Shown one piece after another: positions 3,656-64,000 of a stretch of 64,000 bases of DNA (within the stretch, counting starts at the first letter, position 1; every line of letters begins with the position of its first letter). Made by a program: the position numbers and the translations under genes. The stretch lies in contig JADFYM010000001.1 of the NCBI GenBank assembly GCA_015233035.1, forward strand, positions 1 through 64,000, written 5' to 3'. The DNA is from Magnetococcales bacterium (GTDB taxonomy: Bacteria > Pseudomonadota > Magnetococcia > Magnetococcales > Magnetaquicoccaceae). The notes beneath the pieces are model-generated. The model made no database searches and was not told the origin of the DNA. It saw nothing but the letters and a program-made list of their open reading frames with translations.

Positions 3656-3679
3656 GTGGCGGTGTCAGGAGGAGATGCG

Positions 3680-4069: not shown

Positions 4070-4098
4070 GACCCAGGCAATGGCACGTACCATCCGCT

Positions 4099-4119: not shown

Positions 4120-4268
4120 GGCTTTGCCACCTGACGCTCTCATCGGCGGCACACACAACGGTTCTCCAGTTTTCATCACGTTAAATATGGACTATACAGT
4201 TTCCAGATCCTCCTCCAGGATCCTGGCACCCTGGCCCGCAAGTTCTGTTGATGGCATCCTGACCCCGC

Positions 4269-46345: not shown

Positions 46346-48055
46346 CTAGAACATTTCAAACCCATCACCATCCTCTTCCACAACCTCCCCGCCCAGCACG
46401 GCCCCATGCGCCTTGCGCTCTCTGGCCATGGTATAGAGACTGGCCAAATCTGAAAACTCCTCAGTCAGACTGGAAAGATCCCCCTCCACGCTACTCAAGA
46501 CCTCGCCACCGACCATTTCCGGCAACAGTTCCTGTACACGATGGATGACATGGTCTGTCCCTTTCTTGATGGGATCGTGAAAATCCATCCCCGCTACCAG
46601 CAGTCTGATCTGGACAATAATGGACTGGGTCTCGCTGATAATTTCGTTGAATATGGTCAACACGTCCCCATGGTCGGCATCCATTTGTTGTGCCCGCAAC
46701 GGCACGCGACGCAGCAAAGTGATCGCCCGCATGATTCTTGGCGTGGATTTTTCCGAATAACTCAACCCGATATCCTGCAACTGGGTGGTTACATCGAGCA
46801 GACGATGATTTTGCACGACCCCTTCGCTTTGGATCCGGGCCATCAACCGACTGATGGTCGTCGTCAGCGTGGCCACCCGTTGATTGTTTTTGCTCTCCAG
46901 AGTGGCCAATAATTTATCCAGACGGTGTGCGGTCAGGATCAACATTTCAAAAGCCCGCTTGGTCTGGAAAAAGGTGTTTTCTGTCTTGGAAAAGTTGCGC
47001 AGCAATTCGATGGAAAAATTGTCGTCAAAGATGCTCAAACGCAACAATGCCCCCAGCAGGTAGGAGAGATCCGCACTGTTCCCGCTAAAAATCATGGCAT
47101 CGTCACGGGTGGCAATCATCCCTTTTTTCCGTTCCCCGGCAATCTCTTCTATGCGTCCCAGGTGCTGGTGTAACGAGAGAACCGCCTCCACCAGATCCTT
47201 GCAGAGATCTTCCAGTTGTTCCATGGCAATACGGGCCGCAATGGCTGCCCAGCGTTTGTCCGCCACTTTCAGTTTGGCAGCACTCAGACGCTGTTCAATC
47301 CGTCCCATGGTGGCGAGCACATGTTCCAGCCTTTGGGCTGTGATGTCATCAAATTGAATGGCCTGCATCATGTCAAAAATAATACGATTGACTTGAGAGG
47401 CCTGACCTTCCAATCCTTCGCAACTGTGACTCATGGTCTGAATCTGGTCGGTCATCTGCTTCATGAGGGCGGTGGAACGGGCCTTGAGCGTGAAAAAATA
47501 GTGCTCGGAGGTCTCCAGATCGGCTGACAAACGACGGGAGGTACTGCCCAGCAACGTGGCGGATTCCTGAGTGGAAAGAATAATCTCTCGAATCAAGGTG
47601 CGAATCTGGGCGACCAGACTGTCCACAATGGTACCCAGCGTCTGCCGTTCCAACTCGGCCCCAACCTGCATCTTGATCTGATCAGCCATGGCGGGCAGCA
47701 AGGCATCCTGTTCCAGATCCAGGGCCCAGGAGGTGATCTGGTGCAACTGTTCTTGAATCGTGGACTGCTGTTCAACCAACTCCGCAATCCCTTGCAGCAC
47801 GGCCTTGGTTTCCTGGTCGATGCGGCGATAATCTTCCTGTAACTGTTTGATGCCCAAATTGTTATCACGCGGAGACAACCGTTCCTGCACCGAGAAGGCC
47901 TGCGTGGCCGCCGAGGCGAAACCGACGGAAAAATTGCCCATTTGTTCGGTCACCTGCGCAAAGCCCGCTTTGCTGACGCCGGACAACTTTTCCAACAGGC
48001 TTTTCAGCTTCTGAAACCGGGCAATGGGGGTTGGGCCAGCATCGGATATCGTCAT
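46346..48055 (-). CDS. Coiled-coil protein with CheZ-like motif
   Basis: The 569-residue product is almost wholly helical and lacks membrane segments. I do not recognise a named family for the full length. Around residues 230-250 the segment IQFDDITAQRLEHV has the spacing of the CheZ active site (FQDLTGQ, catalytic Asp and Gln four apart), giving D237 and Q241. A related segment in the second half (MDFHDPIKKGTDHV) has the Asp but not the Gln, which suggests an internal duplication. The C-terminus is acidic and ends GFEMF, similar in style to the CheY-binding tail of CheZ. Upstream of a CheY-like gene on the same strand, it could dephosphorylate that receiver. The function is an inference. Confidence 0.6.
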   Translation of the reverse strand: MTISDAGPTPIARFQKLKSLLEKLSGVSKAGFAQVTEQMGNFSVGFASAATQAFSVQERLSPRDNNLGIKQLQEDYRRIDQETKAVLQGIAELVEQQSTIQEQLHQITSWALDLEQDALLPAMADQIKMQVGAELERQTLGTIVDSLVAQIRTLIREIILSTQESATLLGSTSRRLSADLETSEHYFFTLKARSTALMKQMTDQIQTMSHSCEGLEGQASQVNRIIFDMMQAIQFDDITAQRLEHVLATMGRIEQRLSAAKLKVADKRWAAIAARIAMEQLEDLCKDLVEAVLSLHQHLGRIEEIAGERKKGMIATRDDAMIFSGNSADLSYLLGALLRLSIFDDNFSIELLRNFSKTENTFFQTKRAFEMLILTAHRLDKLLATLESKNNQRVATLTTTISRLMARIQSEGVVQNHRLLDVTTQLQDIGLSYSEKSTPRIMRAITLLRRVPLRAQQMDADHGDVLTIFNEIISETQSIIVQIRLLVAGMDFHDPIKKGTDHVIHRVQELLPEMVGGEVLSSVEGDLSSLTEEFSDLASLYTMARERKAHGAVLGGEVVEEDGDGFEMF

Positions 48056-48210
48056 GGTGTCTCTCCTCGGTCACTCATTCAATACGGCGTTGCGCAAAAA
48101 GCCTCTCTCTTGTGAGAGACTCTACCGCGTTACCTCGCGCGAGTAAAGCGTGCTCATTCACAATCGGAATCCAACAGGCAAGAAAATGCCTGTTGGGGGG
48201 GCACGCACGA

Positions 48211-48236
48211 CCAGGGCAATCCAACTTTTGCCCTGG
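48211..48236. promoter_or_regulatory. Inverted repeat between divergent genes
   Basis: CCAGGGCAA (48211-48219) and TTGCCCTGG (48228-48236) are perfect arms with an 8-base centre. The site lies in the 281-base region between the CheZ-like gene and the Hsp70-like gene and could be an operator for either. Confidence 0.4.
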
Positions 48237-48336
48237 TGCAATGACAGTTTCCTCTTCTAATCCCCCCTGTGGATGGTGTACACTGGCCGCCTGCCGTTGG
48301 TCGTTTGCTGTGGTCTCTACCGTCGAGGACAAGGAT

Positions 48337-51291
48337 ATGAAAGTACAGAAGGTCTGGGTTCGTCACACACACTTGGCCCAACCCACGCCAGCCCGTACCC
48401 ATGCGGGATTGGAAAACCGACAACGTCTCCTGCGACAGGAAATCCTGGATCTGTTGTTGCGCGACCGTTTTGTCTCTTTTATCAAATATCCCGATATTGT
48501 TTTCGATAATCAGTTAAACTGCCTGTGGTGGCTGCGGGGTTTCCAGGCCCCGGAGAGCGCGGTCTTTGAACAGGTTGCCCGGCTCAAGGTGCATACCTTC
48601 CAGCATTGGGAGGTGCCCACCGCCGAAGAACTGCGCCTCATCCTGCATCAACCATTGATCAAAAAAAATATCGCATTGCAAAATAAAATGGTCTGTTCAT
48701 CCACCCTGGACCACACGCAACACCATTATCAAACGCTCGCCATCGGTCGCGGTCCTCAACACGATTCAACACAAAAAGCGGCCAGCAACGAAGAGGTCGA
48801 TTTGTTGATCATTCCCGTGCATCATATTTCGCAACGGGATATTTTTTCCTTTATCGTCTCCTCGGCCCTGTTTCCCATGGGCATTCCCGCCTTGCAAGAA
48901 AAATTGAGCACCCTCTATCAGTTGACCATGGCCTGCAACAATGAGCGGAAAGAGTTGACCACCCCTTCGCAAGCCGAGTTGAAACGTTATTTTCTGGAAG
49001 GAGATTTTGTCCGCGCCCGTTTGCCTGTTCTGGAAGAAGCCTATTTGCAGGACACCAAGAAAGGTTTGTGGGAGTTATACCAGCCCAGACCGCCCCTGGG
49101 CAAAGATTGGTTGGAAATCCGCCTGCAGGAATCCTGGGAGGCACGCAACCCGGAACGGGATGTGCGCAAAGGGGCCGTGGCCATCGATTTTGGAACCAGT
49201 TCCACCGTGGTGGCCTGTCGCGAACAGGGCAAAACCACCCTGTTGCGGGTCGGCATGGCCGACTTTTTCCGCAAGCCCACCCCGGAAGATTATCAAAATC
49301 CGACCATCATGGAGTGGATCAATCTGCCCAATTTGATGGCCGCCTGGAACGCCGAGGCCTATCGGCCCCTGGTGCGTTGGGATGATTTTCATTTTTCCCA
49401 CGCGGCACTGGCCAGTTATCGGCAAAACGAGGCCGACCAGCGCATTGCCGCCAGCATCCTGACCAATATCAAGCAGGGACCGCTCCTGGACAAAGGCAAC
49501 CAGCCCCCCCCCCGCATCACCGATCAGACCACCGGGGCCGACATCGAACTGTGTGCCACCGCATCGCAAATGCCCGTCCACGGACAGCGCATTTCGGTCT
49601 CCAACAGCGACCCTCTGGATCCGATCGAACTGTACGCCTACTACCTGGGCCTGTTTATCAACAACCGTTCCAGCGGCCTGTTTCTGGAATATTATATGAC
49701 ATTTCCGGTCACTTATCCCAAAAAGGTCAAACGGCGTATCCTGACCTCCTTTGCCCGTGGCCTGATGCGCAGTCTGCCCCTTTCCTTGATGGACAGTCCC
49801 GTCATTCAGATGTTTTCCGTGCGGGAAGAGGCCTCCGAACCCACCGCCTATGCCGCCTGTGCCCTGGCAGAACTGGGGATCCAGCCCACGGCAACCGGAA
49901 CGGCCTTTGCCGTGTTTGACTTTGGGGGGGGCAGCACCGATTTTGACTTCGGTCTCTACCGGTTGCCCACAGCCAAGGAGGGCGAACGGGGGTATGAACA
50001 GGTCATCGAACATTTTGGTGCCAGCGGTGATATGTACCTGGGCGGAGAAAATCTGGTCCACCATATCGCCTTCCTGACCTTTATCCACAATCTGGATGTG
50101 TGCCGGAAGTTGCAGGTTTCCTTTACCTCTCCCCCGGAAGCGGAAAGCTTTCCCGGTCATGAACTCTTCATCGACCGTTCCCATACCGCCCAGACCAATA
50201 CCACCCTGTTGATGGCCAAGGTACGCCATCTGTGGGAAAATTTTCAGTGGCCCACCGCCAGCGAATCGGCCAACGGCCAAAAGATCGGTCGTCGCCGGGA
50301 ATCGGATCTCATCGGCGATGTGCTGCATCACGCCATCATCGACACCGACTTCACCCTGGACCACGCCATTCCCTGTTTCGCCGAAGCGGACAATCGGCTC
50401 CCCATCACGCTGGAATTGTTAAACCGCAAACGGGAAAAGGTGTCCGCCCAGTTGGTCGTTGACCGGAACGCCATCAACCAGTTTTTGGTCAAAAGAGTCG
50501 GCAAGGGCATTTATCCCTTTTTCATCGCCATGCACCAAGCCTTTGCCCGTCGAGGGGCCTTGCCGAAAGAGATCCATATCCTCCAGGCAGGCAACGCCAG
50601 TCGGGCACTGCTGGTACAGGCACTCTACGCCATGCTGTTGCAACAAAACATGTTTCGTTGGACACCGCCCACCGAGGGGACCAAGGCGAACCCGGTCATG
50701 GAAGAGATCCGCAACTCTCTGCCTCTGTTTGATCCCTCGGCCCGGGTCCAGTTTATCGTGCATCGACCGCCAGCCGGTGATCCCAATGATCCCTACCGGC
50801 CCACGGCCAAGACCGGTGTCGCCATTGGTCTGCTCAAGTTGATCCCCGGCGAGACATTGCTGGCTCTCCATACCACCAGCAGACACCGCCCCACGGAGAA
50901 GGGCAAACCGGGAAGCTCTGCTCCCATCGTCGAAAGTCTCCAGGAGTCGCCCTTCCATCTGTATGTGGGCCGCCTGAAAAAAGGATGTTTCCAGCCGGTA
51001 TTGCTGCAAAATGATCCCTATGGGGAATGGCGTGAACTCGGAACGCCCACCCGGCGGGCCTTCACCCTGGTCTTTTCCACCTCTCCCCGGTCTGTCTTTG
51101 GCGCACTGCCACGCGGTACCCCGGAATTGCGCGAGAAAACCCTGACCTTTCGCATGGGCCTGGAGCGGAAACAGTTGTTCATCCAGGCGGTGGCACCGAC
51201 TTCTGTAGAAATATGCCTGGCCGACTCCCTGGAACAGCTCCTCCAGCGACCCGAAGAAGCACTCGCACGACAGGTGATGGATCTGACCTGA
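48337..51291 (+). CDS. Large Hsp70/actin-fold ATPase, function unknown
   Basis: The 984-residue product carries the ATP-binding signatures of the Hsp70/actin/sugar kinase fold. Phosphate 1 is AIDFGTSSTVVA (about 282-293), phosphate 2 FDFGGGSTDFDFG (about 526-538), and an adenosine-type motif LQAGNASRALL lies near 748. The first 275 residues and the C-terminal 200 are not Hsp70-like and unknown to me. It is longer than DnaK (about 640) and lacks the substrate-binding domain pattern. The ATG at 48337 follows GAGGACAAGG; the frame is open upstream but without a good start. It stands alone between a CheZ-like gene and the chemotaxis cluster and converges with the next gene two bases away. A chaperone, filament or assembly role cannot be decided. 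Confidence 0.75.
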   Translation: MKVQKVWVRHTHLAQPTPARTHAGLENRQRLLRQEILDLLLRDRFVSFIKYPDIVFDNQLNCLWWLRGFQAPESAVFEQVARLKVHTFQHWEVPTAEELRLILHQPLIKKNIALQNKMVCSSTLDHTQHHYQTLAIGRGPQHDSTQKAASNEEVDLLIIPVHHISQRDIFSFIVSSALFPMGIPALQEKLSTLYQLTMACNNERKELTTPSQAELKRYFLEGDFVRARLPVLEEAYLQDTKKGLWELYQPRPPLGKDWLEIRLQESWEARNPERDVRKGAVAIDFGTSSTVVACREQGKTTLLRVGMADFFRKPTPEDYQNPTIMEWINLPNLMAAWNAEAYRPLVRWDDFHFSHAALASYRQNEADQRIAASILTNIKQGPLLDKGNQPPPRITDQTTGADIELCATASQMPVHGQRISVSNSDPLDPIELYAYYLGLFINNRSSGLFLEYYMTFPVTYPKKVKRRILTSFARGLMRSLPLSLMDSPVIQMFSVREEASEPTAYAACALAELGIQPTATGTAFAVFDFGGGSTDFDFGLYRLPTAKEGERGYEQVIEHFGASGDMYLGGENLVHHIAFLTFIHNLDVCRKLQVSFTSPPEAESFPGHELFIDRSHTAQTNTTLLMAKVRHLWENFQWPTASESANGQKIGRRRESDLIGDVLHHAIIDTDFTLDHAIPCFAEADNRLPITLELLNRKREKVSAQLVVDRNAINQFLVKRVGKGIYPFFIAMHQAFARRGALPKEIHILQAGNASRALLVQALYAMLLQQNMFRWTPPTEGTKANPVMEEIRNSLPLFDPSARVQFIVHRPPAGDPNDPYRPTAKTGVAIGLLKLIPGETLLALHTTSRHRPTEKGKPGSSAPIVESLQESPFHLYVGRLKKGCFQPVLLQNDPYGEWRELGTPTRRAFTLVFSTSPRSVFGALPRGTPELREKTLTFRMGLERKQLFIQAVAPTSVEICLADSLEQLLQRPEEALARQVMDLT

Positions 51292-51293
51292 TA

Positions 51294-53423
51294 CTATCTT
51301 TTATCCTCTTTCCCGGAGCCATCGGCTTTTTTCTTGCCCTTTTTCGGTTTGTCTGGCCTGTCCAGCTTGATCTGGTCGGGGTCGCGGACGACATGCTCGC
51401 GAACCAGGGTGGCGGTCGGCAATAAATCTTTGAATATGGACTGAAAATCACGGACAACATTCTTGGGAGCCGGGGCCACGGTGGGCCTCCCTTCCATAAT
51501 GTCGTCCACTTGCACGATAACCGGCTCTGTCTCCTCCGGCGCAGCCAATGCTGCTGCCTCGGCTACCGCATCCGGCACAACCTCGACAACATGCTCCGCC
51601 GCTGCCACCGGGGTTTTTATCATAACCAGTTCGGCGGCCTCCTCCAGAACCCGTTCCACCTCCTCTGTCACCACATCTGGCACATCTGGCACATCTGCCT
51701 CAACAGCCCGCTCTTCCGCTGCCACCGGGGTTTTTATCATAACCAGTTCGGCGGCCTCCTCCAGAACCAATTCTATCCCCTCTGCCACCACATCTGCCAC
51801 AACCGCCTCGACAGCAAGCTCCGCCGCCAGCACAATCGGTTCGGCGGCCTCTTCCAGAACCAGTTCCATCCCCTCATCCACCACATCTGGCACAACGGCA
51901 ATAGCCAGTTCTGCCTCTGCCACAGCGGTTTTTATCATAACCGGTTCAGCGGTCTCCTCCAGAATCAGTTCTATCCCCTCATCCACCGTATCTGGCACAA
52001 CGGCAACAGCCAGTTCTGCCGCTGCCGCAGGGGGGAGGATCATGACCGGTTCGGCGGTCTCCTCCAGAATCAGCTCTATCCCCTCATCCACCGTATCTGG
52101 CACAACAACAAGTTCTTCCGCTACTTCCGTGCTTGCCAGCACAATCGGTTCGGCCACCAACGCTGCAGCCTCAGCGTCCGGCACAACAGCCGCAGACGCC
52201 TCCTCCTCTGCTGCTATGCTTGCCAGCACAATCGGCTCAGCCACCTCCGCCTCGGGCGCAGCGTCTGGTACAACGGCAGCAGACGCCTCCTCCTCCTCCT
52301 CTGCTGCCAGGCCTGCCAGCACAATCGGCTCAGCCACCTCCGCCTCGGGCGCAGCGTCTGGTACAACGGCAGCAGACGCCTCCTCCTCTGCTGCCAGGCC
52401 TGCCAGCACAACCGGCTCAGCCACCTCCGCCTCGGGCGCAGCGTCTGGTACAACGGCAGCAGACAACTCCTCCTCCTCTGCTGCCAAGCTCGCTGGCACA
52501 ACCGGTTCGACCGCCAGCACCTCGTCCGCAGCGTCTGGTGCAACGACCGCAGACGGCTCCTCCTCCGCTGTCGTGCCTGCCAGCAGTATCACATCGGGCA
52601 AAATCCCGGTAACCATCGTCTCCTCGGCCGCAACAGTTTCCTCCACAGCCGATTCGATGATTTCTGCCACATCCCACAAACCCCAGACCGATCCCTCACC
52701 CGTATCCTCTTGTAACACCTCGGTGGCAGTCACAGGATCTCCTGCGGCGGGCTCCACCACAGCCACCGGCGATTCCTCCGCCAAGACCTGTGGCACCCTC
52801 GCCGGGACAGCATCAGACAACACCGGTACGGCACTCTTGTTGACCACCCCCACCGGTTTAACCCCTGGTTCCCGTTGGTCCGCAAAGGCACTCGGCATCG
52901 GGGGCAAGACCACCCGTTTGGTCTCAGCGGGTTTGTTTTTGCCCACATCCTGCGGGTGTGCATACAACAACGAATCCACATCCAGAATAAGCAACGTGGT
53001 CGCGTTATACTTGCCAACCCCCTGCAAACAGGCACGCTTCATCCCGGACGGTGGCGGCTCATTAATGTTACTTTCATCCAGCTCAACCACTTCATGCACC
53101 GAATCCACGACCACGCCAATCCAGGTCGCCACATCGTCGCGCTCTCCTTCCGCACGATACGAACCATCCAGGATCACAATACGGGATTGAACGGTGGGTT
53201 CCACCCGTTCCATACCCAACTTTTGTCGCAGGTCACTGACCGGAATGACATAGCCCCGCAAGTTGATCACCCCCCACAGATCCGCACTGGTACGGGGCAC
53301 GGGGGTAATCTTGGTGGCACGTGACTCGGTGTTCGTATCGGTCAACAGCTCGATAACCTCCCGGACCAAGACCAGATCCACGGCATACAGATCCGCATCC
53401 AATTGCAAAGTCAAGACCTTCAT
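51294..53423 (-). CDS. CheW-domain protein with long repetitive acidic tail
   Basis: The 709-residue product starts with a CheW domain (about 1-165) with VREVIELL, WGVINLRGYVIPV and LLILDVDSLL. The remainder is low-complexity. One type of about 30 residues (AAVVPDAAPEAEVAEP) is repeated about five times. Another type (VVPDTVDEGIELILEE) is repeated six to seven times, sometimes followed by VMIKTPVAA. The last 25 residues are Lys-rich (KPKKGKKK). The ATG at 53423 begins the CheW domain directly (MKVLTLQL); a GTG seven codons earlier is less likely. A normal CheW is about 160 residues. The tail could be an extended linker that holds the coupling protein to something else in the array or at the pole. 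Confidence 0.85.
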   Translation of the reverse strand: MKVLTLQLDADLYAVDLVLVREVIELLTDTNTESRATKITPVPRTSADLWGVINLRGYVIPVSDLRQKLGMERVEPTVQSRIVILDGSYRAEGERDDVATWIGVVVDSVHEVVELDESNINEPPPSGMKRACLQGVGKYNATTLLILDVDSLLYAHPQDVGKNKPAETKRVVLPPMPSAFADQREPGVKPVGVVNKSAVPVLSDAVPARVPQVLAEESPVAVVEPAAGDPVTATEVLQEDTGEGSVWGLWDVAEIIESAVEETVAAEETMVTGILPDVILLAGTTAEEEPSAVVAPDAADEVLAVEPVVPASLAAEEEELSAAVVPDAAPEAEVAEPVVLAGLAAEEEASAAVVPDAAPEAEVAEPIVLAGLAAEEEEEASAAVVPDAAPEAEVAEPIVLASIAAEEEASAAVVPDAEAAALVAEPIVLASTEVAEELVVVPDTVDEGIELILEETAEPVMILPPAAAAELAVAVVPDTVDEGIELILEETAEPVMIKTAVAEAELAIAVVPDVVDEGMELVLEEAAEPIVLAAELAVEAVVADVVAEGIELVLEEAAELVMIKTPVAAEERAVEADVPDVPDVVTEEVERVLEEAAELVMIKTPVAAAEHVVEVVPDAVAEAAALAAPEETEPVIVQVDDIMEGRPTVAPAPKNVVRDFQSIFKDLLPTATLVREHVVRDPDQIKLDRPDKPKKGKKKADGSGKEDKR

Positions 53424-53636
53424 AGGGCACCCCCCGGCAGACACAAAAGTACAATGCTTGGCAATACCATACGATCAACCACCGTTCACATCTCCTTTGA
53501 CAAAAGTGCAGGATGGCAAAAAAGCCACTTTACCAACGTATCCACGAAAAAGCATGGCAAAAAAAAACAGTGTATGGCATTATGGCCCGACAGGTAGGGG
53601 TGTGGTGGTTAAAATTTTTGAACAGGGGAACTCAAA

Positions 53637-54581
53637 ATGGCAAATGAATCCGTACTGGATGAGGTGTTTCAACGGTCCAACCTTGCATACAGCAACGAGA
53701 TGGAAATGTTGACCTTCTATCTGACTGACGATCAACTGTATGGGATCAATGTCTTCAAAATCATAGAAATCATGGAATGCCCGAAGGTGGTCACCAAAAC
53801 GCCCCACTCTCATCCCGTGGTCAAAGGCAACATTGACTTTCGCGGCCATCCCATCTCACTGTTCGATCTGGCCGATGGCCTGGGCTTGACGCCCATCGAT
53901 TATCGCAACACCCTCAGCTACATTCTGGTCTGTGAATACAGCAACACCATCCAGGGCTTTCTGGTCTCTCGCCCCAATATGCTCATTAATAAAAGCTGGA
54001 GCGACATTATCAAGCCGGAAGGCACCCTGTACGACCAGAGCTACCTGACTGCCATCGCCTACCACAACTCTGTTTCCATCCAAATTCTGGATGTCGAAAA
54101 ACTGTTGGTCGAAATTATCGGTATGGATACCTCCGTCTCAGAGGAGTTGATCCAGCAGAGCAAGAACTTGTCCGCCGATCAACACCAGGTACTGCTGGTG
54201 GACGACTCCAAGGCCGCCTGCAGCATGTTGGGAGCCGCCCTGAATCAGATGAACATCGCGCACACCATCCTGAACAGTGCTCAGGAGGCTCTGAACCTGT
54301 TGAACAAAACCCTGAAGGAGAATAATGGCAAATGCCCGTATTCCCTTATCTTTACCGATCTGGAAATGCCCGGCATGGACGGTTTCACCTTTACCCGCAA
54401 GATACGGGAAATCGCGGCCCTCGCCAATGTGCGCCTGGTGGTCCACAGTTCGTTGAGCAACAAGTCCAACTGGGAAAAGGCACAGGAAATGGGTGCAGAC
54501 GACTTTATTCCCAAGTTTTCCCCAGACCGCTTTGCCGAAACCATCTTGAAGCAGTTGGAGAGATCTACGCTGCCGCGCTAG
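53637..54581 (+). CDS. cheV: CheV coupling protein (CheW-receiver)
   Basis: The 314-residue product has a CheW domain (about 15-165, with YGINVFKIIEIMECP, VVKGNIDFRGHPISLFDL and ISIQILDVEKLL-like strands). A receiver follows (about 180-305) with LLVDDS, phospho-Asp in LIFTDLEMPGMDGF and a Lys near IPKF. CheV links receptors to CheA and can take phosphate as a sink or for adaptation. The start at 53637 follows GGGGAA. It diverges from the tailed CheW gene and converges with an MCP-like gene nine bases away. Confidence 0.93.
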   Translation: MANESVLDEVFQRSNLAYSNEMEMLTFYLTDDQLYGINVFKIIEIMECPKVVTKTPHSHPVVKGNIDFRGHPISLFDLADGLGLTPIDYRNTLSYILVCEYSNTIQGFLVSRPNMLINKSWSDIIKPEGTLYDQSYLTAIAYHNSVSIQILDVEKLLVEIIGMDTSVSEELIQQSKNLSADQHQVLLVDDSKAACSMLGAALNQMNIAHTILNSAQEALNLLNKTLKENNGKCPYSLIFTDLEMPGMDGFTFTRKIREIAALANVRLVVHSSLSNKSNWEKAQEMGADDFIPKFSPDRFAETILKQLERSTLPR

Positions 54582-54590
54582 GGCCTGGCA

Positions 54591-55604
54591 CTAAAACAGC
54601 TCGATATCCCCTTCGTCCATGCTCTCCTGCATCACCGGCTTGTGACTGACGGAGTTGAGCAATTGCCGCTGTTCCTGGAGCCGTTGCTGGGTGCGCACAA
54701 CACGCTCCTTTCTGGGTATTGTGTCATCCAGGAACAAATCCAGGTCGAAGATGTGGTCAAATTTTTCTACCACCGAGGTCTTTTTATCGATCCCTTGGGT
54801 GATTTGAGTGACCATGTCCTCAAACTGAAGCGAAAGGACGGCCAGACCGATATTGTTGTGGATCTCTTTGGTGATCCCGGACACCTGTTGCAGCATTCTG
54901 GTCGTGAGCCGGTCATTCTCGCTGATCTGGGCCATCATGGCGTCCACTTTGTTTTTGGATTCCATGGAAAAGCTCATATCTTTGGAGGCCATCTCCTTGA
55001 CCACCTCTTTGGCGGTATCGACCTGATTGCTGGTCTCTACCACCACATCGCTGATCAAGTCACTGACTTCGCGGGAAGCGATGGCCAACCGGCGCACCTC
55101 CGCCGCCACAACGGAAAAGGCCCCACTGGCCTGCCCTTCCCGTGCCGCCACAATACGCGCATTCAGGCCGAGCACTTTGGTCAAGTCGGCGATGGCGTTG
55201 ATCTTGCCCAGAGACTCTTCCACCTGCAGCATTTCCGCAGAAACATCATCGATACGATACATCATCGCCATGCTCTGCTGACTGACCGCCACAATATGTT
55301 CCACGAAGGCTTGCAGAATGGCATCGGTCGCCGTGGTAAACTCACCAATGGTGATATGGCTCTTTTTGTCCGCTTTCTGGCTGCCGCCCTGTTTTTCCAT
55401 ACTGGCCACCACACCGGCCACCAGTTCGCTCTGTTGCCCGGTCTGTTGCCGTAGCAGGTTGAACCGTTCGCTCAGCTTGCCCACCGCCTCCTGCACCATC
55501 TGACGGACCTGCGCACCATCCGCACGCAGGCTCGCCAACTCCCGGCGGAGTTCGTCGCGTATGCCCTGAGAAATTTTTACTGCATCCAGCTTATCTTTTG
55601 CCAT
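54591..55604 (-). CDS. Soluble MCP-like protein with CheZ-like motif
   Basis: The 337-residue product has no membrane segment. Residues about 130-210 match the receptor signalling hairpin, with a tip at LGLNARIVAAREGQASGAF and VVAAEVRRLA. Both arms are much shorter than in receptors. After the hairpin, LQFEDMVTQITQ places D263 and Q267 exactly as in the CheZ catalytic motif. The C-terminus is acidic and ends DIELF. It is the last gene of a minus-strand group with a paralogue (33 bases upstream) and CheW. It may sit in the array through the hairpin and act on CheY-P. Alternatively it is only a small cytoplasmic receptor. Confidence 0.75.
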   Translation of the reverse strand: MAKDKLDAVKISQGIRDELRRELASLRADGAQVRQMVQEAVGKLSERFNLLRQQTGQQSELVAGVVASMEKQGGSQKADKKSHITIGEFTTATDAILQAFVEHIVAVSQQSMAMMYRIDDVSAEMLQVEESLGKINAIADLTKVLGLNARIVAAREGQASGAFSVVAAEVRRLAIASREVSDLISDVVVETSNQVDTAKEVVKEMASKDMSFSMESKNKVDAMMAQISENDRLTTRMLQQVSGITKEIHNNIGLAVLSLQFEDMVTQITQGIDKKTSVVEKFDHIFDLDLFLDDTIPRKERVVRTQQRLQEQRQLLNSVSHKPVMQESMDEGDIELF

Positions 55605-55637
55605 TTGCTCACCACACCAAACACTGTGCTGCGTGCC

Positions 55638-56603
55638 TTAAGCCGCATCAAACGCCTGTCGCTGCTGCAACAAATTGTTTTGCAACCTGGCCAACCGCTC
55701 TTTTTGAGAAAGGGAATCGTTCATCAACATGTCCAAATCCACCACCCGGGCAAACCGTTCCAACACCGCCAATTTGCGCTCGATCCGCTTGAGTACCAGC
55801 GTGACGGTCTCTTCAAACTGCAAGAGAGAAACCGCAACGTCCACATTGCCACCAATCTCCTCGGTAATACCAGACACCTGGCGGAGGGTCCGGGCCCGGA
55901 AGGAGTTGATCTCACTGATATCCGTCATCATGGCATTCACCTGGCCTTTGGCATTCATGGCAAAGCCCATATCCTTGGAGGCCATCTCTTTGACAATATC
56001 CCGCACCGAACGAATATTGGCACTGGTCTCTTCTACCGCCAAACTGATCTGGTCGCTCACCTGACGGGAAGAAGAGGCCAACTGGTGTATCTCCGTTGCC
56101 ACAAATGTGAAGGCCTCCCCGGACCGTCCGGCCCGCGCCGCCACAATACGGGCATTGAGGGCGAGACCCTTGGTCAGTTCGACCACCGTGTTAATCTTGC
56201 CGAGATGTTCCTGCACCCGCAACATGTAGGCCGCCACATCATCCATACGATAGACCATCCGCATGCTTTCCTGGCTGATTTGCGAGATCCGATCCACAAA
56301 AGTGCGCAAAATCTCATCCGTGGCCTGCACAAACTCTTGGATATTGACCGAATCTGCCTGGCCTTTTTTCGGCTCAACCACCTGTTCATGCCCAATAGAC
56401 TGTTCGTCCAGGTCGGCAGCCAGGCCAATCACCAAATCCTGCTGCTCTTCCGCCTGTTGCCGCAAACCGTTAAAGCTGTTGTCCAGTTTGACCACAGAAT
56501 CACGGACCAGAGAGCGGATCTGCCCGCCCACGGTACGCAAATCCTCCAGTTGCTTGCCAAACTCAACCTGGACTTCCCGATTCAGTAAAGTTGCATCGTT
56601 CAC
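55638..56603 (-). CDS. Soluble MCP-like protein (paralogue without CheZ-like residues)
   Basis: The 321-residue product is built like the protein at 54591: a hairpin tip LALNARIVAARAGRSGEAF, then VSGITEEIGGN and LLQFEETVTLVL. In the last piece the CheZ-like Asp and Gln are Glu265 and Leu269, and the C-terminus ends FDAA without the acidic ELF tail. It starts with GTG at 56603. It lies between cheW (63 bases upstream) and its paralogue. The pair could form heterodimers or one could be a structural partner; this is inferred from position and similarity. Confidence 0.75.
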   Translation of the reverse strand: MNDATLLNREVQVEFGKQLEDLRTVGGQIRSLVRDSVVKLDNSFNGLRQQAEEQQDLVIGLAADLDEQSIGHEQVVEPKKGQADSVNIQEFVQATDEILRTFVDRISQISQESMRMVYRMDDVAAYMLRVQEHLGKINTVVELTKGLALNARIVAARAGRSGEAFTFVATEIHQLASSSRQVSDQISLAVEETSANIRSVRDIVKEMASKDMGFAMNAKGQVNAMMTDISEINSFRARTLRQVSGITEEIGGNVDVAVSLLQFEETVTLVLKRIERKLAVLERFARVVDLDMLMNDSLSQKERLARLQNNLLQQRQAFDAA

Positions 56604-56666: not shown

Positions 56667-57173
56667 TCAGGCCGCTTCGCGGTTACCACCCGCATTGACA
56701 TCCAGCGCATGTTCCAACTCTTCGGTAGAAAACACCTTGTTGGTATCCAGAATGATGATGAAGTGATCACCCTGCTTGCCCATGCCACGGATAAAATCGG
56801 TGCGCAATTTGGCACCGATCTTGGGTGGCGGGTCGATTTGATCCGGATCCAGGCTCATGACCTCCTTCACCGAATCGGCCATGGCCCCCAACACCGTCTT
56901 GCCCTCGTCCACGGTCACCTCAATGATGATGATGCAGGTATTGACTGTCCGTTCGGATTGGGACATGCCAAACTTCAGGCGCATGTCCATGACCGGCACG
57001 ACACTCCCGCGCAGATTGATGACACCACACATGGACTTGGGGGTACGGGGCACTTTGGTCAGTGCAGTATACTCCAAGACCTCTTTCACCCGCCCAATAT
57101 CCACGGCAAACACCTCGTCCGCCAGGGTAAAGGTTAGAAACTGCGTTGTTTCCGTGATATCCGTTGTCCCCAT
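56667..57173 (-). CDS. cheW: CheW coupling protein
   Basis: The 168-residue product is a single CheW domain: FLTFTLADEVFAVDIGRVKEVLEY, CGVINLRGSVVPVMDMRLKFGM, and a C-terminal strand FIIILDTNKVFS. It joins receptors to CheA in the signalling array. The start follows GAGAGGAG at a normal distance. It leads a minus-strand group with the two soluble MCP-like genes and diverges from the STAS-cheY-cheA-cheB group. Confidence 0.95.
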   Translation of the reverse strand: MGTTDITETTQFLTFTLADEVFAVDIGRVKEVLEYTALTKVPRTPKSMCGVINLRGSVVPVMDMRLKFGMSQSERTVNTCIIIIEVTVDEGKTVLGAMADSVKEVMSLDPDQIDPPPKIGAKLRTDFIRGMGKQGDHFIIILDTNKVFSTEELEHALDVNAGGNREAA

Positions 57174-57801: not shown

Positions 57802-58166
57802 TGGCTAAAACAATCATGACCGTAGATGACTCCTCCAGCGTCAGGCAGATGGTTGGCTTGACACTGAAAGGAGAAGGATACCAAGTGGTGGAGGCGGTGG
57901 ATGGCAAGGATGCCCTCACGAAGGTGGGGGGGGCGACCATTGATATGGTCATTACAGATCTGAACATGCCCAACATGGATGGCATCACCTTGATCCGGGA
58001 ATTGCGCAAATTACCGGCTTTCAAGTTTGTGCCGATTATCATGCTGACGACCGAATCCCAGGCCGATCGCAAGCAAGAGGGCAAGGATGCCGGTGCAACC
58101 GGGTGGATTGTCAAACCGTTCAAGCCAGAACAACTGATCGGTGTCATCAAGAAAGTGCTCGGCTAA
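57801..58166 (+). CDS. cheY: CheY response regulator
   Basis: This 121-residue receiver has the acidic pocket VDDS, phospho-Asp D53 in MVITDLNMPNMDG, Thr in MLTTES and Lys in GWIVKPFKPEQL. CheY-P binds the flagellar switch and sets rotation. It is coupled to the STAS gene upstream and followed by cheA after 35 bases. The start is fixed by the one-base overlap and GGGAG upstream. Confidence 0.95.
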   Translation: MAKTIMTVDDSSSVRQMVGLTLKGEGYQVVEAVDGKDALTKVGGATIDMVITDLNMPNMDGITLIRELRKLPAFKFVPIIMLTTESQADRKQEGKDAGATGWIVKPFKPEQLIGVIKKVLG

Positions 58167-58201
58167 GCCATCCCAGACCTCATCGAACGGAGATCCAAGC
58201 C

Positions 58202-60307
58202 ATGGCTGTAGAGATTGATACCAGTGCCTTCACCGAAGAGGCCTACGAGTTGCTCTCTGAATTGGAGGACTCGCTGCTGGAACTGGAAGAGACCCCGACC
58301 GATATGGAGTTGATCGGTCGGGTCTTCCGGGCCATGCACACCATCAAAGGGTCCGGAGCCATGTTTGGCTTCGACGAGGTGGCCAAGTTTACCCACGAAG
58401 TGGAAACAGTTTTTGACAAGGCGCGTTCCGGGACTTTGCCGGTCACCAAGGCGTTGATCGATCTGACCCTGGCGGCCCGGGATCAGATTCGCACCATTCT
58501 GGACGCCTCCCGGGGGGGACCGCCCGCCGACCAGGACAATGCCAACCGCATTATTGCCGGGCTGCGTGGACTGACCCCCCAGAAAGAGTCCGCCGCCGCA
58601 CCGGTCGCCGTCCAGGCGGTTGCCCCGGTTGTCCCGGAGGGACCGCACGTCTATCGCGTCCGTTTTGAACCCAGGCCGGAAATTTTTTCATCCGGGACCA
58701 ACCCCTTGTTGTTGATCAACGAAATGAGGGATCTGGGGCATTGCCGCGTCATTGCCATCACAAATGCCTTTCCCTCTCTGGAAGAGTTGGATCCAGAACG
58801 GTGCTATACCTCCTGGGAAATTTTTCTGACTACCACGGAGGGAGAAAATGCTATCCGGGATATTTTTATCTTTGTGGAAGATGATTGTACCCTGAATATT
58901 CGCCTCCTGGATCGGGAGGAAGAGCCGGATGAAATGGCGCAGCCCAAAAAATTGGGTGAAATTCTGGTTGAACGGGGTGATATCAGCGCGGAAGCCCTGG
59001 ACAAGGCTTTGACGCCACTGGGCGACCGGTTGGTCACCTCTGGTGTGGTCCCCGCCGACAAGGTACGTGCGGCACTGACCGAGCAACGGGTTGTACAAGA
59101 GCAACGCCAACAACAGGGCAAGGCCGCAGAAGTGGATGCTGTGGTCCGCGTCCCCTCCACCAAACTGGACAAACTGGTCAATCTGGTGGGCGAAATGGTG
59201 ACGGTGCAGGCGCGGCTGAACCAGATTGCCACCCAGTTCAGCAATCAACATTTGCAACTGGTTGCCGAAGAGATTGAGCACCTCACTGCCGAACTGCGCG
59301 ACAACACCATGAGCATCCGCATGTTGGCCATCGGCTCCACTTTTAACAAATTCAAGCGTCTGGTCCGGGATCTTTCCACAGAGTTGGGCAAACAGATCGA
59401 ACTGACCACCTCTGGGGCCGACACAGAACTGGACAAGACCGTCATCGATCAGTTGAATGATCCGCTGGTTCACATTATTCGCAACAGCATTGACCATGGT
59501 ATCGAAAAACCGGATGTGCGACAAGCCACCGGCAAACCTTTGGTCGGGCAGATTCATTTGTCTGCCGTTCATTCCGGGACCAGCGTTTTGATTCAGGTCA
59601 GAGACGACGGCAAGGGTCTCGACCCGCAACTGCTGCGGCGCAAAGCAGTGGAAAAGGGTGTTTTGTCGCCGGATGCGGTATTGTCCGACCACGAGGCTTA
59701 CCAGTTGATTTTTGCTGCCGGTTTCTCTACTGCCGAAAAGATCACCAATGTCTCCGGGCGTGGCGTGGGCATGGATGTGGTACGCAAATCCATTGAAGGG
59801 CTGCGCGGCTCCATCGACACCCAAAGCGAACTGGGCAAAGGGACGAGCATTACCCTCAAACTGCCCCTGACACTGGCCATTATCGAAGGGTTGCTCGTCA
59901 GCGTCAATCAAAACTATTTTGTTGTTCCCCTGGCGGCCGTGGAAGAGTGTGTGGAACTGGCCCCCAAAGATATTGCCAACTCGCATGGTCGGCGCATCGT
60001 CAATGTGCGCGGTGAAATTGTCCCCTTTATCCGTATTCGCGAACGGTTTGACATGTCCGGCGAGCGGCCCACCATCGAACAGATTGTCATTGCCAATGTC
60101 GATGGCAAGCGGGTTGGCTTCGGGGTGGACTCGGTCGTCGGGCAACATCAGACGGTCATCAAAAATCTGGGTAACAGCTTTGAATACTCGGACGAATTTT
60201 CCGGTGCCACCATCCTGGGCGACGGAACGGTCGCGCTGCTCCTGGACTTGGCCAGAATGGTGCGTTATGTCGAGATACAAGAGTCCAAAGAGACGGGAGG
60301 ATCTTGA
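58202..60307 (+). CDS. cheA: CheA chemotaxis histidine kinase
   Basis: The product has 701 residues. The P1/HPt domain has phospho-His H46 in MHTIKGSGAMFGF. A middle part (about 150-240) has RVRFEPRPEIF and a mixed alpha/beta pattern. Then come two copies of a short motif (KLGEILVERGDIS and a weaker second) at about 255-300, found in some other CheA proteins. The dimerisation helices start near 315 (STKLDKLVNLVGEM). The ATP-binding domain has HIIRNSIDHGIE, DDGKGLD and GRGVGMDVV. The C-terminal CheW-like P5 domain lies at about 563-690. The ATG at 58202 follows GGAG. cheB follows after three bases. Confidence 0.96.
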   Translation: MAVEIDTSAFTEEAYELLSELEDSLLELEETPTDMELIGRVFRAMHTIKGSGAMFGFDEVAKFTHEVETVFDKARSGTLPVTKALIDLTLAARDQIRTILDASRGGPPADQDNANRIIAGLRGLTPQKESAAAPVAVQAVAPVVPEGPHVYRVRFEPRPEIFSSGTNPLLLINEMRDLGHCRVIAITNAFPSLEELDPERCYTSWEIFLTTTEGENAIRDIFIFVEDDCTLNIRLLDREEEPDEMAQPKKLGEILVERGDISAEALDKALTPLGDRLVTSGVVPADKVRAALTEQRVVQEQRQQQGKAAEVDAVVRVPSTKLDKLVNLVGEMVTVQARLNQIATQFSNQHLQLVAEEIEHLTAELRDNTMSIRMLAIGSTFNKFKRLVRDLSTELGKQIELTTSGADTELDKTVIDQLNDPLVHIIRNSIDHGIEKPDVRQATGKPLVGQIHLSAVHSGTSVLIQVRDDGKGLDPQLLRRKAVEKGVLSPDAVLSDHEAYQLIFAAGFSTAEKITNVSGRGVGMDVVRKSIEGLRGSIDTQSELGKGTSITLKLPLTLAIIEGLLVSVNQNYFVVPLAAVEECVELAPKDIANSHGRRIVNVRGEIVPFIRIRERFDMSGERPTIEQIVIANVDGKRVGFGVDSVVGQHQTVIKNLGNSFEYSDEFSGATILGDGTVALLLDLARMVRYVEIQESKETGGS

Positions 60308-60310
60308 ACG

Positions 60311-61483
60311 GTGGCGAAAATTCGCGTCCTGATCATTGATGATTCCGCCGTGGTACGTCAAACACTGACCCAGATTCTGGAATCAGATGAAGACATTGAG
60401 GTGGTGGGATCGGCTCAGGATCCTTTTGTGGCGGCGGAAAAACTGCGGACCACCGTACCGGATGTGATCACTCTGGATGTGGAAATGCCCCGCATGGATG
60501 GCATCACCTTTCTGCGCAAGATTATGACGCAGCATCCCATCCCTGTGGTCATGTGTTCTTCGCTGACTGAAGAGGGCTCGGCCACGGCTTTGAAGGCGTT
60601 GGAGTATGGTGCGGTGGATATTATCACCAAACCCAGAATGGGCACCAAAACCTTTCTGGAAGAGTCGCGCATCCGCATTTGTGATGCCGTCAAGGCGGCC
60701 GCTCTGGCCCGGATGCCGCGATTTGCGTTGCGTCCGGTCGAAAGGGCACGTCCCACCGAAGAAGCCCGTCCGGTCGAAAAGAGCTACACGACTGAAGAAG
60801 GCCCCACGACCAACCGGTTTGTTGCCGCCACCCAGGCGGGCTACAAAGTGCCACCCAAGTTGACGGCGGATGCCATGCTGCCCCCACCCGATGCCCGTGC
60901 CATGATTCAGACCACGGAAAAGGTGGTCATCGTGGGGGCTTCGACGGGCGGTACGGAGGCACTGCGCATCTTTCTGGAGGCACTGCCAGCGGACGCGCCG
61001 GGCATGGTCATTGTGCAGCATATGCCGGAAAATTTTACCACGGCCTTTGCCAACCGTCTCAACACCTTGTGCCAGGTGACCGTCAAGGAGGCCGCCCATG
61101 ATGATTCGGTCGTGCGGGGTCGGGTCTTGATTGCACCAGGCAACAAACACACCCTCCTCAAAAGAAGCGGTGCCCGTTATATGGTCGAAGTCAAAGAGGG
61201 ACCGCTGGTCAGTCGCCATCGGCCTTCCGTGGATGTTTTGTTCCGTTCTGCCGCCCGGTATGCCGGGAAAAATGCCGTGGGCGTCATTATGACCGGCATG
61301 GGCGATGACGGGGCGCGGGGCATGTTGGAGATGAAACAGGCGGGTGCCACCACGATTGCCCAGGACGAACAAAGTTGCGTCGTCTTCGGGATGCCGAAAG
61401 AGGCGATCAAGCACGGCGGGGTGGATATTGTCAAGCCGCTGGACAAGATTGCAGCGGAAGTGATTCGGTTGTGCGGGGGGTGA
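60311..61483 (+). CDS. cheB: CheB methylesterase/deamidase
   Basis: The 390-residue product has an N-terminal receiver (D56 in [11 protein letters not shown]), then a Pro/Arg-rich linker of about 60 residues. The methylesterase domain has the catalytic triad S211 (GASTGG), H237 (QHMPENFT) and D332 (MGDDGARG). It removes receptor methyl groups in adaptation. The start is GTG at 60311, with GGGAGG upstream overlapping the end of cheA. The C-terminal codons and stop lie inside a 16-bp inverted repeat. Confidence 0.96.
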
Positions 61484-61539
61484 GAAAACCTTCGCACAAC
61501 CGAATCACTGAACGGCGGACTTCGCGGTGGAAGTCTGCC
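61460..61539. terminator. Two hairpins between convergent cheB and cheD
   Basis: The first has perfect 16-bp arms at 61460-61475 and 61493-61508 (GTGATTCGGTTGTGCG and its complement) and spans the cheB stop. The second pairs 61514-61523 (GGCGGACTTC) with 61530-61539 (GAAGTCTGCC). A short A-rich run follows. The pair probably acts as a terminator for both strands. Confidence 0.55.
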
Positions 61540-61554
61540 TGACTGGGAAAAAAG

Positions 61555-62031
61555 CTACTGTCCCGACTGGGACCGCTTCATCAGGATGGAGCCATCCTGG
61601 GTGTTGAAAATCACCTTCCGGCTCACCTCTCCCCCCATATCCGAGGCGATGATCGGGATTTGTGCCTGCGCCAAAAATTCGTGGGCGACCTCAATATTGC
61701 GTTGCCCCACATTGAGAAAACCGGAAGAACTTTGCAGGACGGCCCCCCCCCCGAACACCTTGGCCTTGAGTTCTCTTTTGGAGCACCCCATTTCCAGCAT
61801 GTGTTCGATCAGTTTGACAATGGCAATATTGCCAAACTTGGGCGATGGCAAACCATCCCCATTCCAGAGGGGCAACTTGTAATGGTTCATCCCCCCCTTG
61901 CGCAAACGCGGATCCCAAAGGCAAACGGCAATACAGGAACCCAAAACCGTGGTGATGACATAATCCCCATCCTTGGCAAATAATGCGCCGGGCAATAGGA
62001 AAGGCTTGCTGGTCTCTGGTTCATTCACCAT
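61555..62031 (-). CDS. cheD: CheD receptor glutamine deamidase
   Basis: The 158-residue CheD has its catalytic Cys in TTVLGSCIAVCLWD and its His in GGMNHYKLP, with the family's Thr before the Cys. CheD deamidates Gln residues of receptors and in some bacteria is controlled by CheC or CheY-P. The ATG lies two bases after the stop of the upstream kinase-like gene, so they form one transcript. The family's usual partner CheC is not in the window. Confidence 0.95.
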   Translation of the reverse strand: MVNEPETSKPFLLPGALFAKDGDYVITTVLGSCIAVCLWDPRLRKGGMNHYKLPLWNGDGLPSPKFGNIAIVKLIEHMLEMGCSKRELKAKVFGGGAVLQSSSGFLNVGQRNIEVAHEFLAQAQIPIIASDMGGEVSRKVIFNTQDGSILMKRSQSGQ

Positions 62032-62033
62032 GG

Positions 62034-62960
62034 CTAAAACAACTCGGTCTGATCATCGCTAAAGAAAAACTCATTACCATCCACAGAGAACGTGTCGGCC
62101 TCGGCATCGGTTTCCACAAACGGAATGGAGAGCGTCACCGTACACCCCTCCCCCGGTTTGGCGTTGACCAATACCGTACCCTCCATCATGTCAACCACCG
62201 CCTTGGTGATACTCAAACCCAACCCATGCCCCTTGTGCGACTTGCGAATGCCGGTTTCCAATTGGGCAAAACGGTCAAAAATACGCCCCAACTGATCGGT
62301 ATCCAGACCCACACCCGTGTCCGTTACCGAAAGCACTAGGCGATCATCGACCACACTGATATCCAGATCAATGCGTCCACCCGGATTGTTGAATTCAATG
62401 GCATTGGAGAGCAGGTTTTGCACGACCAATTCCAGTTTTTCTGAATCGGACTGGAACAGCAACCGCTCACCCTCCTGCACCACCGGCGCAGAACCGAGCA
62501 CCAGCTTTTTGCCCAGAAAATAGACATCCAACCCCTTCGCCCGGATCAGATGGGCAAAATCGTTGACAGCATGGATCAGCAAGGCATGTCCATCCACCGT
62601 GGCGGATTGCAGCATGGTCGCCCCATCCTCCAACTCCGCAGCGGCAAAAATATTGCGCAACTGAAAGTCCAGACTGAACGCCTCCGCAAAGATGGAACTG
62701 GCAATCTCAATCGTCGTGGCCCGGTCCGCATCATGGGACAACAACTGCTGCGTCAAGCCCAAAATACAGGAGAGTGGATTATTGATCTCATTTTTCATAT
62801 GAGAAACAAAATTGCTTTTCACCTGCTCCGAAATTTGCAGCTTCCGGTTGACCTCTTCCAGTCTTCTGCTGACAATTTTCAGATCATACAAAGTTTGTTT
62901 TGTATGAAAAAATCTTGTTTTCAACTCATTGAGCAAATCATCGTCACTCAGATCAGCCAC
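62034..62960 (-). CDS. Histidine-kinase-like protein lacking the phospho-His
   Basis: The 308-residue soluble protein has an N-terminal coiled coil (about 1-45). Its dimerisation helix reads FVSHMKNEINNPLSCILG. Aligned with the usual FLANMSHEIRTPL, Asn57 stands at the phospho-His position and Asn also replaces the Arg. The ATP-binding domain is intact: N box NLLSNAIEFNN, DTGVGL and GHGLGLSI. The last residues are acidic and end DQTELF, like the tails of the CheZ-like proteins nearby. It is coupled to cheD. It may bind ATP without normal autophosphorylation and act as a scaffold or phosphatase. An alternative is use of H54, three residues earlier. Confidence 0.8.
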   Translation of the reverse strand: MADLSDDDLLNELKTRFFHTKQTLYDLKIVSRRLEEVNRKLQISEQVKSNFVSHMKNEINNPLSCILGLTQQLLSHDADRATTIEIASSIFAEAFSLDFQLRNIFAAAELEDGATMLQSATVDGHALLIHAVNDFAHLIRAKGLDVYFLGKKLVLGSAPVVQEGERLLFQSDSEKLELVVQNLLSNAIEFNNPGGRIDLDISVVDDRLVLSVTDTGVGLDTDQLGRIFDRFAQLETGIRKSHKGHGLGLSITKAVVDMMEGTVLVNAKPGEGCTVTLSIPFVETDAEADTFSVDGNEFFFSDDQTELF

Positions 62961-63184
62961 ATCGCCACTCCCTCTGTCTGCCTTATGGGAACAAGCCCCC
63001 CACTTACCGCCCTTGATTCTAGCTCCAATCCAGTCAAATCACCACCCCGGTCGTGCATCCATACGCATTTTTTTTGGCCAACGCGCTGGCGTTCTCTGGT
63101 GGTTTTTTCTTTGACTTTACGGTCGAAGAATGTCATGTTTGCAGAGTGCAGCACTGGATTGATGTCAAACGAGCCGCCCATTCC

Positions 63185-64000
63185 ATGAATGATTCCGACA
63201 TTCCCGTTTCCATTACCCTGTCCGACAAGGATTTCCAACGCCTGAGTGTATTCATCGAATCCACGAGTGGTATTCAGATGCCCTTGTCCAAAAAATCCAT
63301 GTTAACGGCGCGGATTCAAAAACGGCTGCGTCTGTTAAAATTGCACTCTTTTACCGAGTATGTGGATTGGGTGCTGGATCCACACGACACAACGCAGGAA
63401 CTGATCCATTTTCTCGATATTGTCACCACGAACAAAACCGATTTTTTCCGGGAACCCAACCATTTCACCTTCATGACGGAAACCGCCATTCCCGCCCTGA
63501 TCCAGAGTGGGGGAGCCGGTACCAGCAGGCCGTTGCGCATCTGGAGTGCCCCCTGTTCCACCGGGGAAGAGCCTTACACCATGGCCATGGTCATCAAAGA
63601 ATTCGCTGCCCAACGCAACAACGGCTTCAAGGCCACCATACTGGGAACAGACCTGTCCACACGTGCCTTGCAACATGCCGAAAATGCCGTGTACGACATG
63701 GACAAAACCGAACCGGTACCACTGCCCCTCAAACGTAAATATATGTTGAAAAGCAAAGATCAAGCCACACCACGGGCACGCATGACACCGGAAATCCGCG
63801 AAATGGTCAAGTTCCAGCACTTAAATTTTATGGATAGCGAATACCATATTCCGCAACCCATGGACATTATCTTCTGTCGCAACTGCCTGATCTATTTTGA
63901 CCGGCCAACAGCAGAAAAAATTGTCAACAAGCTGTGCCGCCACTTGATCCCCGGCGGATACTTTTTTATCGGCCACTCCGAGACACTCAACAAGCTGCAA
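63185..64000 (+). CDS. cheR: CheR receptor methyltransferase (cut by window end)
   Basis: The first 272 residues are present. The N-terminal helical domain has ITLSDKDFQRLSVFIES, then TTNKTDFFREPNHF, the CheR signature. The SAM-binding motif is SAPCSTGEEPYTMAM, followed by LGTDLSTRALQHA and IIFCRNCLIYFD, where Cys stands for the usual Val. GYFFIGHSETL is near the end. It methylates receptor Glu residues with S-adenosylmethionine. The ATG at 63185 fits the family length. The frame is open upstream without a good start and has no strong SD. It diverges from the pseudo-kinase/cheD pair. Confidence 0.93.
   Translation, partial: MNDSDIPVSITLSDKDFQRLSVFIESTSGIQMPLSKKSMLTARIQKRLRLLKLHSFTEYVDWVLDPHDTTQELIHFLDIVTTNKTDFFREPNHFTFMTETAIPALIQSGGAGTSRPLRIWSAPCSTGEEPYTMAMVIKEFAAQRNNGFKATILGTDLSTRALQHAENAVYDMDKTEPVPLPLKRKYMLKSKDQATPRARMTPEIREMVKFQHLNFMDSEYHIPQPMDIIFCRNCLIYFDRPTAEKIVNKLCRHLIPGGYFFIGHSETLNKLQ

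Follow-up and report, generated by a model that had tools for sequence, protein, structure and literature searches.

ParP links chemosensory arrays to the cell pole by means of a ParC-binding part at its N-terminus and a long linker rich in Pro (PMC5706961). FrzCD of Myxococcus binds DNA by a basic N-terminal tail (PMC5716589). Within the Magnetococcales, strain IT-1 was seen to keep its arrays close beside the bundles of flagella (PMC5088516). The UR-1 genome paper states that magnetotactic cocci commonly carry two such bundles and, in its accessible part, names Che proteins only in general terms (PMC6783814). Our search of the open-access literature, with subscription papers mostly outside it, found no report of a CheW protein with a tail of the kind described here. 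To our knowledge, array placement without ParC-type systems is known for few bacterial groups. The C-terminal linkers of FtsZ and SSB provide a further model, in which a folded domain is followed by a hypervariable disordered linker and a conserved terminal binding peptide.

A CheW protein with an acidic repeat tail and a conserved tip is encoded at 51294..53423 (709 aa) of the window, the whole stretch of 64,000 nucleotides of Magnetococcales DNA analysed here. In these magnet-sensing cocci it may tether the chemosensory array to one set position within the cell. The gene and all its parts given below lie on the reverse strand. Its open frame, 51294-53444 (716 aa), is longer than the called gene; the start is set at 53423, as the sequence-only reading had it, since a MKVL(T/S)LQL start is common to all 5 orthologues. 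The reading frame is taken as correct because both protein ends are conserved in the orthologues. The CheW domain (aa 1-158, 52950..53423) matches Pfam PF01584 with E 7e-27 and 94.2 bits against a curated cut-off of 23.5, over residues 10-161 of the 716-aa frame, and no other domain is found in this frame at E≤0.001. NLRG, the receptor-contact motif of CheW, is intact (GVINLRGYVIPVSDLR in the translation). Pfam, the translation and Tandem Repeats Finder bear out the earlier description of CheW fused to a long repeat tail and a Lys-rich end; the CheW domain is intact, and the tail is acidic with about 490 aa. There are 20 CheW matches in the source genome. An antisense frame at 51463-53190 (forward strand, 575 aa, Ser/Thr/Ala-rich) lies over the repeats and is probably a by-product of the GC-rich repeats.

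The layout is the same as in FtsZ and SSB, whose folds are unrelated and whose linkers are as a rule much shorter. CheV is also a CheW domain with a C-terminal addition, and a true CheV is encoded next door; however, its addition is a receiver domain, and none is found in the tailed CheW (Pfam, E≤0.001). By analogy, the tailed CheW would work like ParP, but it differs in build. Both have a CheW-like array domain, a long low-complexity linker and a small anchor-binding part, putative in the tailed CheW, and the gene of the proposed partner is adjacent, here in loci outside this genus. In ParP the array domain is C-terminal and the ParC-binding part N-terminal (PMC5706961), whereas the order is reversed here, with CheW at 10-161 of 716. 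Furthermore, the linker is acidic and repetitive here, and the neighbour is a tail-anchored coiled-coil protein, called cl1 below, instead of ParC. No parC lies directly upstream, where the neighbour is CheV, and no ParA/MinD-type ATPase is found among the 16 window proteins scanned with Pfam. The likeness to FrzCD is that a chemosensory part is placed, in the tailed CheW putatively, by a basic peptide at one chain end; FrzCD is a receptor rather than a CheW, and its basic end lies at the N-terminus with no acidic repeat linker of such length behind it (PMC5716589).

Following residue 158 there are 551 residues, 493 of which form an acidic low-complexity linker (aa 159-651, 51471..52949) with 21% Ala, 18% Val, 18% Glu, 9% Pro and a net charge of -101. 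The two repeat classes noted earlier behind CheW, and then KPKKGKKK, are all present. With anchors set by eye, class B has 5 copies at a spacing of 31-39 aa (51594..52109) and class A has 5 copies of about 29-31 aa (52131..52568). Tandem Repeats Finder gives five rows: periods of 87 nt (5.1 copies, 83% match), 93 nt (4.1 copies, 86%) and 180 nt (2.5 copies) for the first array, 105 nt (2.6 copies, 88%) for the second array, and a short 9-nt run. Three adjoining class A copies look recent, with 1-4 differences per 60 nt among them, and the outer two are set apart from the others by 14-18 per 60 nt. Judged from these differences, the array seems to turn over, and the repeats seem, as proposed, alike enough for a change of copy number.

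Orthologues were searched in 61 genomes, one per species, namely the source genome and 60 relatives. Besides the source genome, four genomes have a CheW domain 68-71% identical to that of the source, the next best being at most 48%. All 5 orthologues are tailed and belong to the genus of Ca. Magnetaquicoccus. Two of them (G001 and G004) are split within the repeats by the end of a contig, and a second contig carries the C-terminal half of the protein. No orthologue is among the matches in G002 (75% complete) or G005 (96%). A contig search with the full source protein gave no relative, and the alignment gave four. Pairwise identity among the three complete proteins is 68-77% in CheW, 30-36% in the tail and 63-81% in a 27-residue module, m2, which lies behind the tail. 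The source tail is 30.5% identical to that of G003, a value reached by 11 of 30 shuffles, and 29.9% identical to that of G006 (10 of 30). The linker is not wholly free, since 0 of 30 shuffles are as high as the identity between the G003 and G006 tails (35.7%) or between the middles of the source and G003 tails (35.1%). Some repeat periods recur, 48 nt in G003 and G004 and 105 nt in the source and G006. A fixed repeat number together with tailless orthologues, which would have spoken against the sequence-only reading, is not what the genus presents, as all five proteins are tailed and the repeat sequences differ between species by eye.

The charge of the tail is kept. All 5 orthologues, two of them with partial tails, have a net charge of -0.205 to -0.222 per residue, and in the three complete ones the tail carries -96 to -138 and the end +4 to +6, in agreement with the earlier remark that the end is charged opposite to the tail. 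In this comparison of five orthologues, linker charge and rough length are kept and the sequence changes by repeat gain and loss, which makes the protein a clear natural example of a linker with these two properties retained and most of its sequence replaced. Of the suggestion that the tail acts as a spacer or a polar anchor, what is supported is a linker that varies in length, keeps its charge and joins two conserved ends. Composition makes disorder likely for four of the 5 tails, which lie on the disordered side of the charge-hydropathy line; the source tail itself, richer in Val and unusually hydrophobic, comes out on the folded side. AlphaFold gives a mean pLDDT of 35 for the tailed CheW (five sequences), is poor even for the CheW domain, and is uninformative on disorder.

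Module m2 (aa 652-678, 51390..51470, APKNVVRDFQSIFKDLLPTATLVREHV) was absent from the earlier description. It is amphipathic helix-like, is conserved in 5 of 5 orthologues and precedes the Lys-rich end (aa 679-709, 51297..51389), which in the source protein contains KPKKGKKK. Its consensus is [NS][IV]V.DFQS[IM]F[KR]DLLP....R, with D, F, Q, S, F, D, L, L, P and R invariant in all five, and its helical hydrophobic moment exceeds that of 98.8-99.7% of shuffles in three CheW-tail variants. The last 58 residues of the protein are basic overall (+6). A profile of the five m2 copies, run against 48 genomes of the order, recovers the five by construction (E≤1.2e-23) and weakly matches three mutually orthologous proteins named SBP (0.003-0.013) and one unrelated-looking frame (0.033). 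No PDB match to the tip is found up to E 5. Tip-profile matches at E 0.05-0.09 occur in many genomes and are taken as chance, two translated ones being, as we take them by eye, RecA-like; one match at 0.003 lies on contig C25 of G044.

SBP is a small Lys-rich protein without CheW that ends in m2, and it is present in 6 of 7 genomes of the genus. In the source genome, G001 and G005 it is flanked by cl1 and by an endonuclease IV-like gene, and a MobA-like gene precedes this group. In the source genome SBP and cl1 are on contig C169, at about 3490-4327 (reverse strand), outside the window. In G004 (550 contigs, 95% complete) the tailed CheW is present and neither cl1 nor SBP was found. An hhalign comparison of the cores of the CheW and SBP tips scores 35.0; none of 300 column shuffles exceeds 16.6. 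Single-profile HMMER of the 28-aa tip against the six whole SBPs gives weak scores of 7.9, 7.1, 5.5, 4.6, 4.6 and -0.6 bits, the best shuffles reaching 2.9-7.8. The likeness is convincing only by profile-profile comparison. A joint profile of the 11 m2 copies finds its sources at E≤6.1e-15 by construction, the next match being at 0.022, and no twelfth copy in the 7 genus genomes. The same terminal peptide is thus shared by two proteins of the genus that are unlike in other respects.

The protein encoded before SBP, cl1, is a small membrane protein with a hydrophobic 19-aa segment that ends 1-3 residues from the C-terminus and with acidic first 50 residues (11 copies examined). Its AlphaFold model is one long helix (pLDDT 82, 11 sequences). 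It has no convincing family, the best being TIGR04211 'SH3_and_anchor' with 23.3 bits against a cut-off of 65. A cl1 profile matches 39 of the 48 genomes of the order, 38 after a match in G014 without membrane segment was dropped as false, with one copy each. Among 299 genomes drawn from the phylum, all 38 matches are within the order and none is in the other 251. We call the gene position directly after cl1 the slot. In the 38 genomes the slot holds a CheW-domain protein in 15 and a CheW-less protein with a basic end in 19 (6 in this genus, 8 in its sister genus, 4 in family f8 and 1 in f12); it holds a CheW-less protein without Lys-rich end in 3 (f11) and nothing before the nuclease in 1 (f10), the CheW-less assignments being made by eye from the nearest frames. 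Two of the 15 CheW proteins are cut by contig ends (G025 and G032), with about 170 bp in between in G025. In other families of the order, the thirteen CheW frames read (325-807 aa) also encode tailed CheWs, and cl1 lies directly before all of them. No che cluster surrounds these 13 in stretches of 7-19 kb searched by BLAST with the Che proteins of the window; single matches are a receptor near one and a weak CheY-like and a weak kinase-like match near two others. Five further CheW frames of 367-432 aa (G019, G022, G023, G026 and G028; L140-L144) are double-CheW proteins and not tailed. In four of the five families examined, they have receptors or CheR-like genes close by.

The slot proteins appear to share the tip in part. 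Among 11 measured slot tailed CheWs, the tail is acidic in all and the end is net positive in nine. A profile of eight tips from f8, f13 and f12 matches the end of 4 of 13 complete or nearly complete slot tailed CheWs, all of f13 (G029, G042, G044 and G047), three of them lying in the profile itself and the fourth, G044, being a near copy of G047. This profile finds its eight and G044 at E≤1.2e-12, and no other slot protein, including the other nine tailed CheWs, at E≤0.2. Seven measured ends without m2 match are basic in five cases (one a zinc ribbon) and not basic in two (G021 and G040). When profiles are compared with 100 column shuffles, the pairs CheW tips-SBP, SBP-g2, SBP-f8, f8-f13 and f13-g2 (probability only 10%) stand above all shuffles, as do CheW and SBP tips combined with f8 and with g2. 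The genus CheW tips do not stand above shuffles with g2, f8 or f13 (1, 6 and 42 of 100 as high), nor do SBP-f13 (8), f8-g2 (12) and the combined tips with f13 (24). By this measure SBP is the only direct match of the genus CheW tips. A second motif, m1 (DEQ..GL), in SBP, g2 and f13 slot proteins was rejected, with 15, 61 and 9 of 150 column shuffles as high. The slot tailed CheW of G018 (L131:7473-9491, reverse strand) ends in a zinc ribbon (PF13717, E 2.9e-10) and has no Lys tip. An f12 slot protein (G028, L180) ends in many KEKKAD/KEKKAG repeats, so Lys-rich ends also grow by repeats.

In a tree of 50 CheW domains (55 less 5 duplicates, one of them a slot CheW), the tailed CheWs of the genus group with the f13 slot CheWs (93/84) and apart from the ordinary CheW of their cluster. 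This grouping fits the tips, since the slot tails with m2 all belong to f13. The simplest account, which we favour, is that the tailed CheW arose at the cl1 locus and now lies in the che cluster, and that SBP keeps the old place. The relocation is favoured rather than demonstrated because long branches meet and the tree alternatives stand: neither slot CheWs as one clade (p 0.355) nor slot and tailed CheWs as one clade (p 0.437) is rejected. Alternatively, CheW may have been joined independently to the same tip.

We tentatively propose, at somewhat below even chance, that the protein serves as a tethered adaptor of the array. Given the intact domain and the surrounding full che cluster, we infer that CheW would take its place in the receptor-CheA-CheW array. 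The acidic tail of about 490 aa would serve as a flexible spacer, and m2 with the Lys-rich end would dock at a fixed site in the cell, for which the best candidate is a membrane site marked by cl1, found in Magnetococcales only. Its gene lies directly before CheW-domain (15) or small basic-ended (19) proteins in 34 of 38 genomes, and in this genus, where the tailed CheW is in the che cluster, the same tip without CheW is at the cl1 locus. The Lys-rich peptide could bind the acidic half of cl1, the membrane or DNA. The adjacency of cl1 and slot gene could also be plain linkage, and because cl1 also has CheW-less partners its role cannot be array anchoring alone. We take f11 to be the family of strain IT-1. 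As IT-1 has positioned arrays, and f11 shows no tailed CheW among matches at E≤1e-20 and no Lys-rich slot protein, this family counts against the docking account. So do G004, where a tailed CheW is present but cl1 and SBP were not found, the m2 match in only 4 of 13 slot tailed CheWs, and the two slot ends that are not basic. If the account is right, tailed CheW and cl1 would be a candidate adaptor-anchor pair for array placement outside ParC-type systems. A wider reading is more doubtful: the Magnetococcales would own an array-placing module apart from ParP/ParC, made of cl1 and a docking-tip partner with or without CheW on an acidic tether; in one genus the CheW form would have moved to the che cluster, with the bare tip staying behind at the old locus, and the tether would be selected mainly for charge and length through repeat birth and death.

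Docking at the nucleoid instead of the membrane is unlikely. The Lys-rich end would bind DNA without sequence preference and hold CheW and its partners on the chromosome, following FrzCD, whose basic tail is kept in charge but not in sequence (PMC5716589). The four slot proteins examined have Lys-rich, histone-like ends (44-115 residues, +17 to +30), and the slot adjoins an endonuclease IV-like gene in many genomes, both in line with such binding. However, the source protein has a short end of low positive charge (+4 in its last 29 residues), the stretch ahead of this end keeps its sequence and not its charge alone, a 490-residue acidic tail is expected to repel DNA, and the gene conserved next to the slot gene encodes a membrane protein.

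It is improbable that the tail is mostly tolerated low-complexity growth on a CheW of ordinary function, its end being kept for stability or solubility. The repeats differ between species and some copies are young, two of the 7 genus genomes gave no orthologue (one of them 75% complete), and m2 is often missing from slot tailed CheWs, all as such growth would have it. Against this, the far end shows 63-81% identity within the genus, with a poorly conserved tail ahead of it, net charge stays constant, and the same end is present on SBP. The constant charge would also suit a condensate or exclusion body, in which the acidic tails of many array-bound CheWs make a zone analogous to that of PopZ and organise the pole or exclude large complexes, and acidic tails in 11 of 11 measured slot tailed CheWs agree with it. 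We regard this as quite improbable, since the end carries no other domain (Pfam gives only CheW, E≤0.001) and a single conserved tip fits docking better.

A full chemotaxis cluster surrounds the gene. CheV (CheW and receiver, 53637..54581, forward strand) is the divergent neighbour of the tailed CheW and stands beside it in 5 of 5 orthologues. It is followed by two short MCP-signal proteins (54591..56603, reverse strand; Pfam, profile matches), the ordinary CheW (56667..57173, reverse), CheA (57944..60304, forward, open frame from stop to stop) and, within 60308..64000, CheB (forward), CheD (reverse), a histidine kinase (reverse) and CheR (forward, running off the window). STAS and CheY also belong to the cluster, and CheV, ordinary CheW, STAS, CheY and CheA are kept neighbours in all 5 genomes with tailed CheW. 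Although ordinary CheW and CheV in the same cluster in 5 of 5 genomes would suit a signal modulator, in which the tailed CheW competes with the ordinary CheW (56667-57173) and its bulky tail limits array size or kinase activation, this leaves the conserved tip and SBP unexplained and is very improbable.

Several other proteins of the region deserve mention. A 1086-aa protein inside the che region (48031-51291, forward), convergent with the tailed CheW, has weak DnaK/HscA matches (E 0.002-0.06) and is presumably SrfB-like; an orthologue lies near the tailed CheW in G003 and G004 too. Between CheY and an Hsp70-like gene, a 569-aa protein (46346-48055, reverse) has a weak CheZ match (E 0.0025) and ends in DGFEMF, and the MCP-like protein at 54591-55604 ends in GDIELF. 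From this resemblance the former, taken with the latter, may be a CheZ-like phosphatase. A receptor at 42745-45108 (forward) has a C-terminal hemerythrin domain and is perhaps an oxygen sensor.
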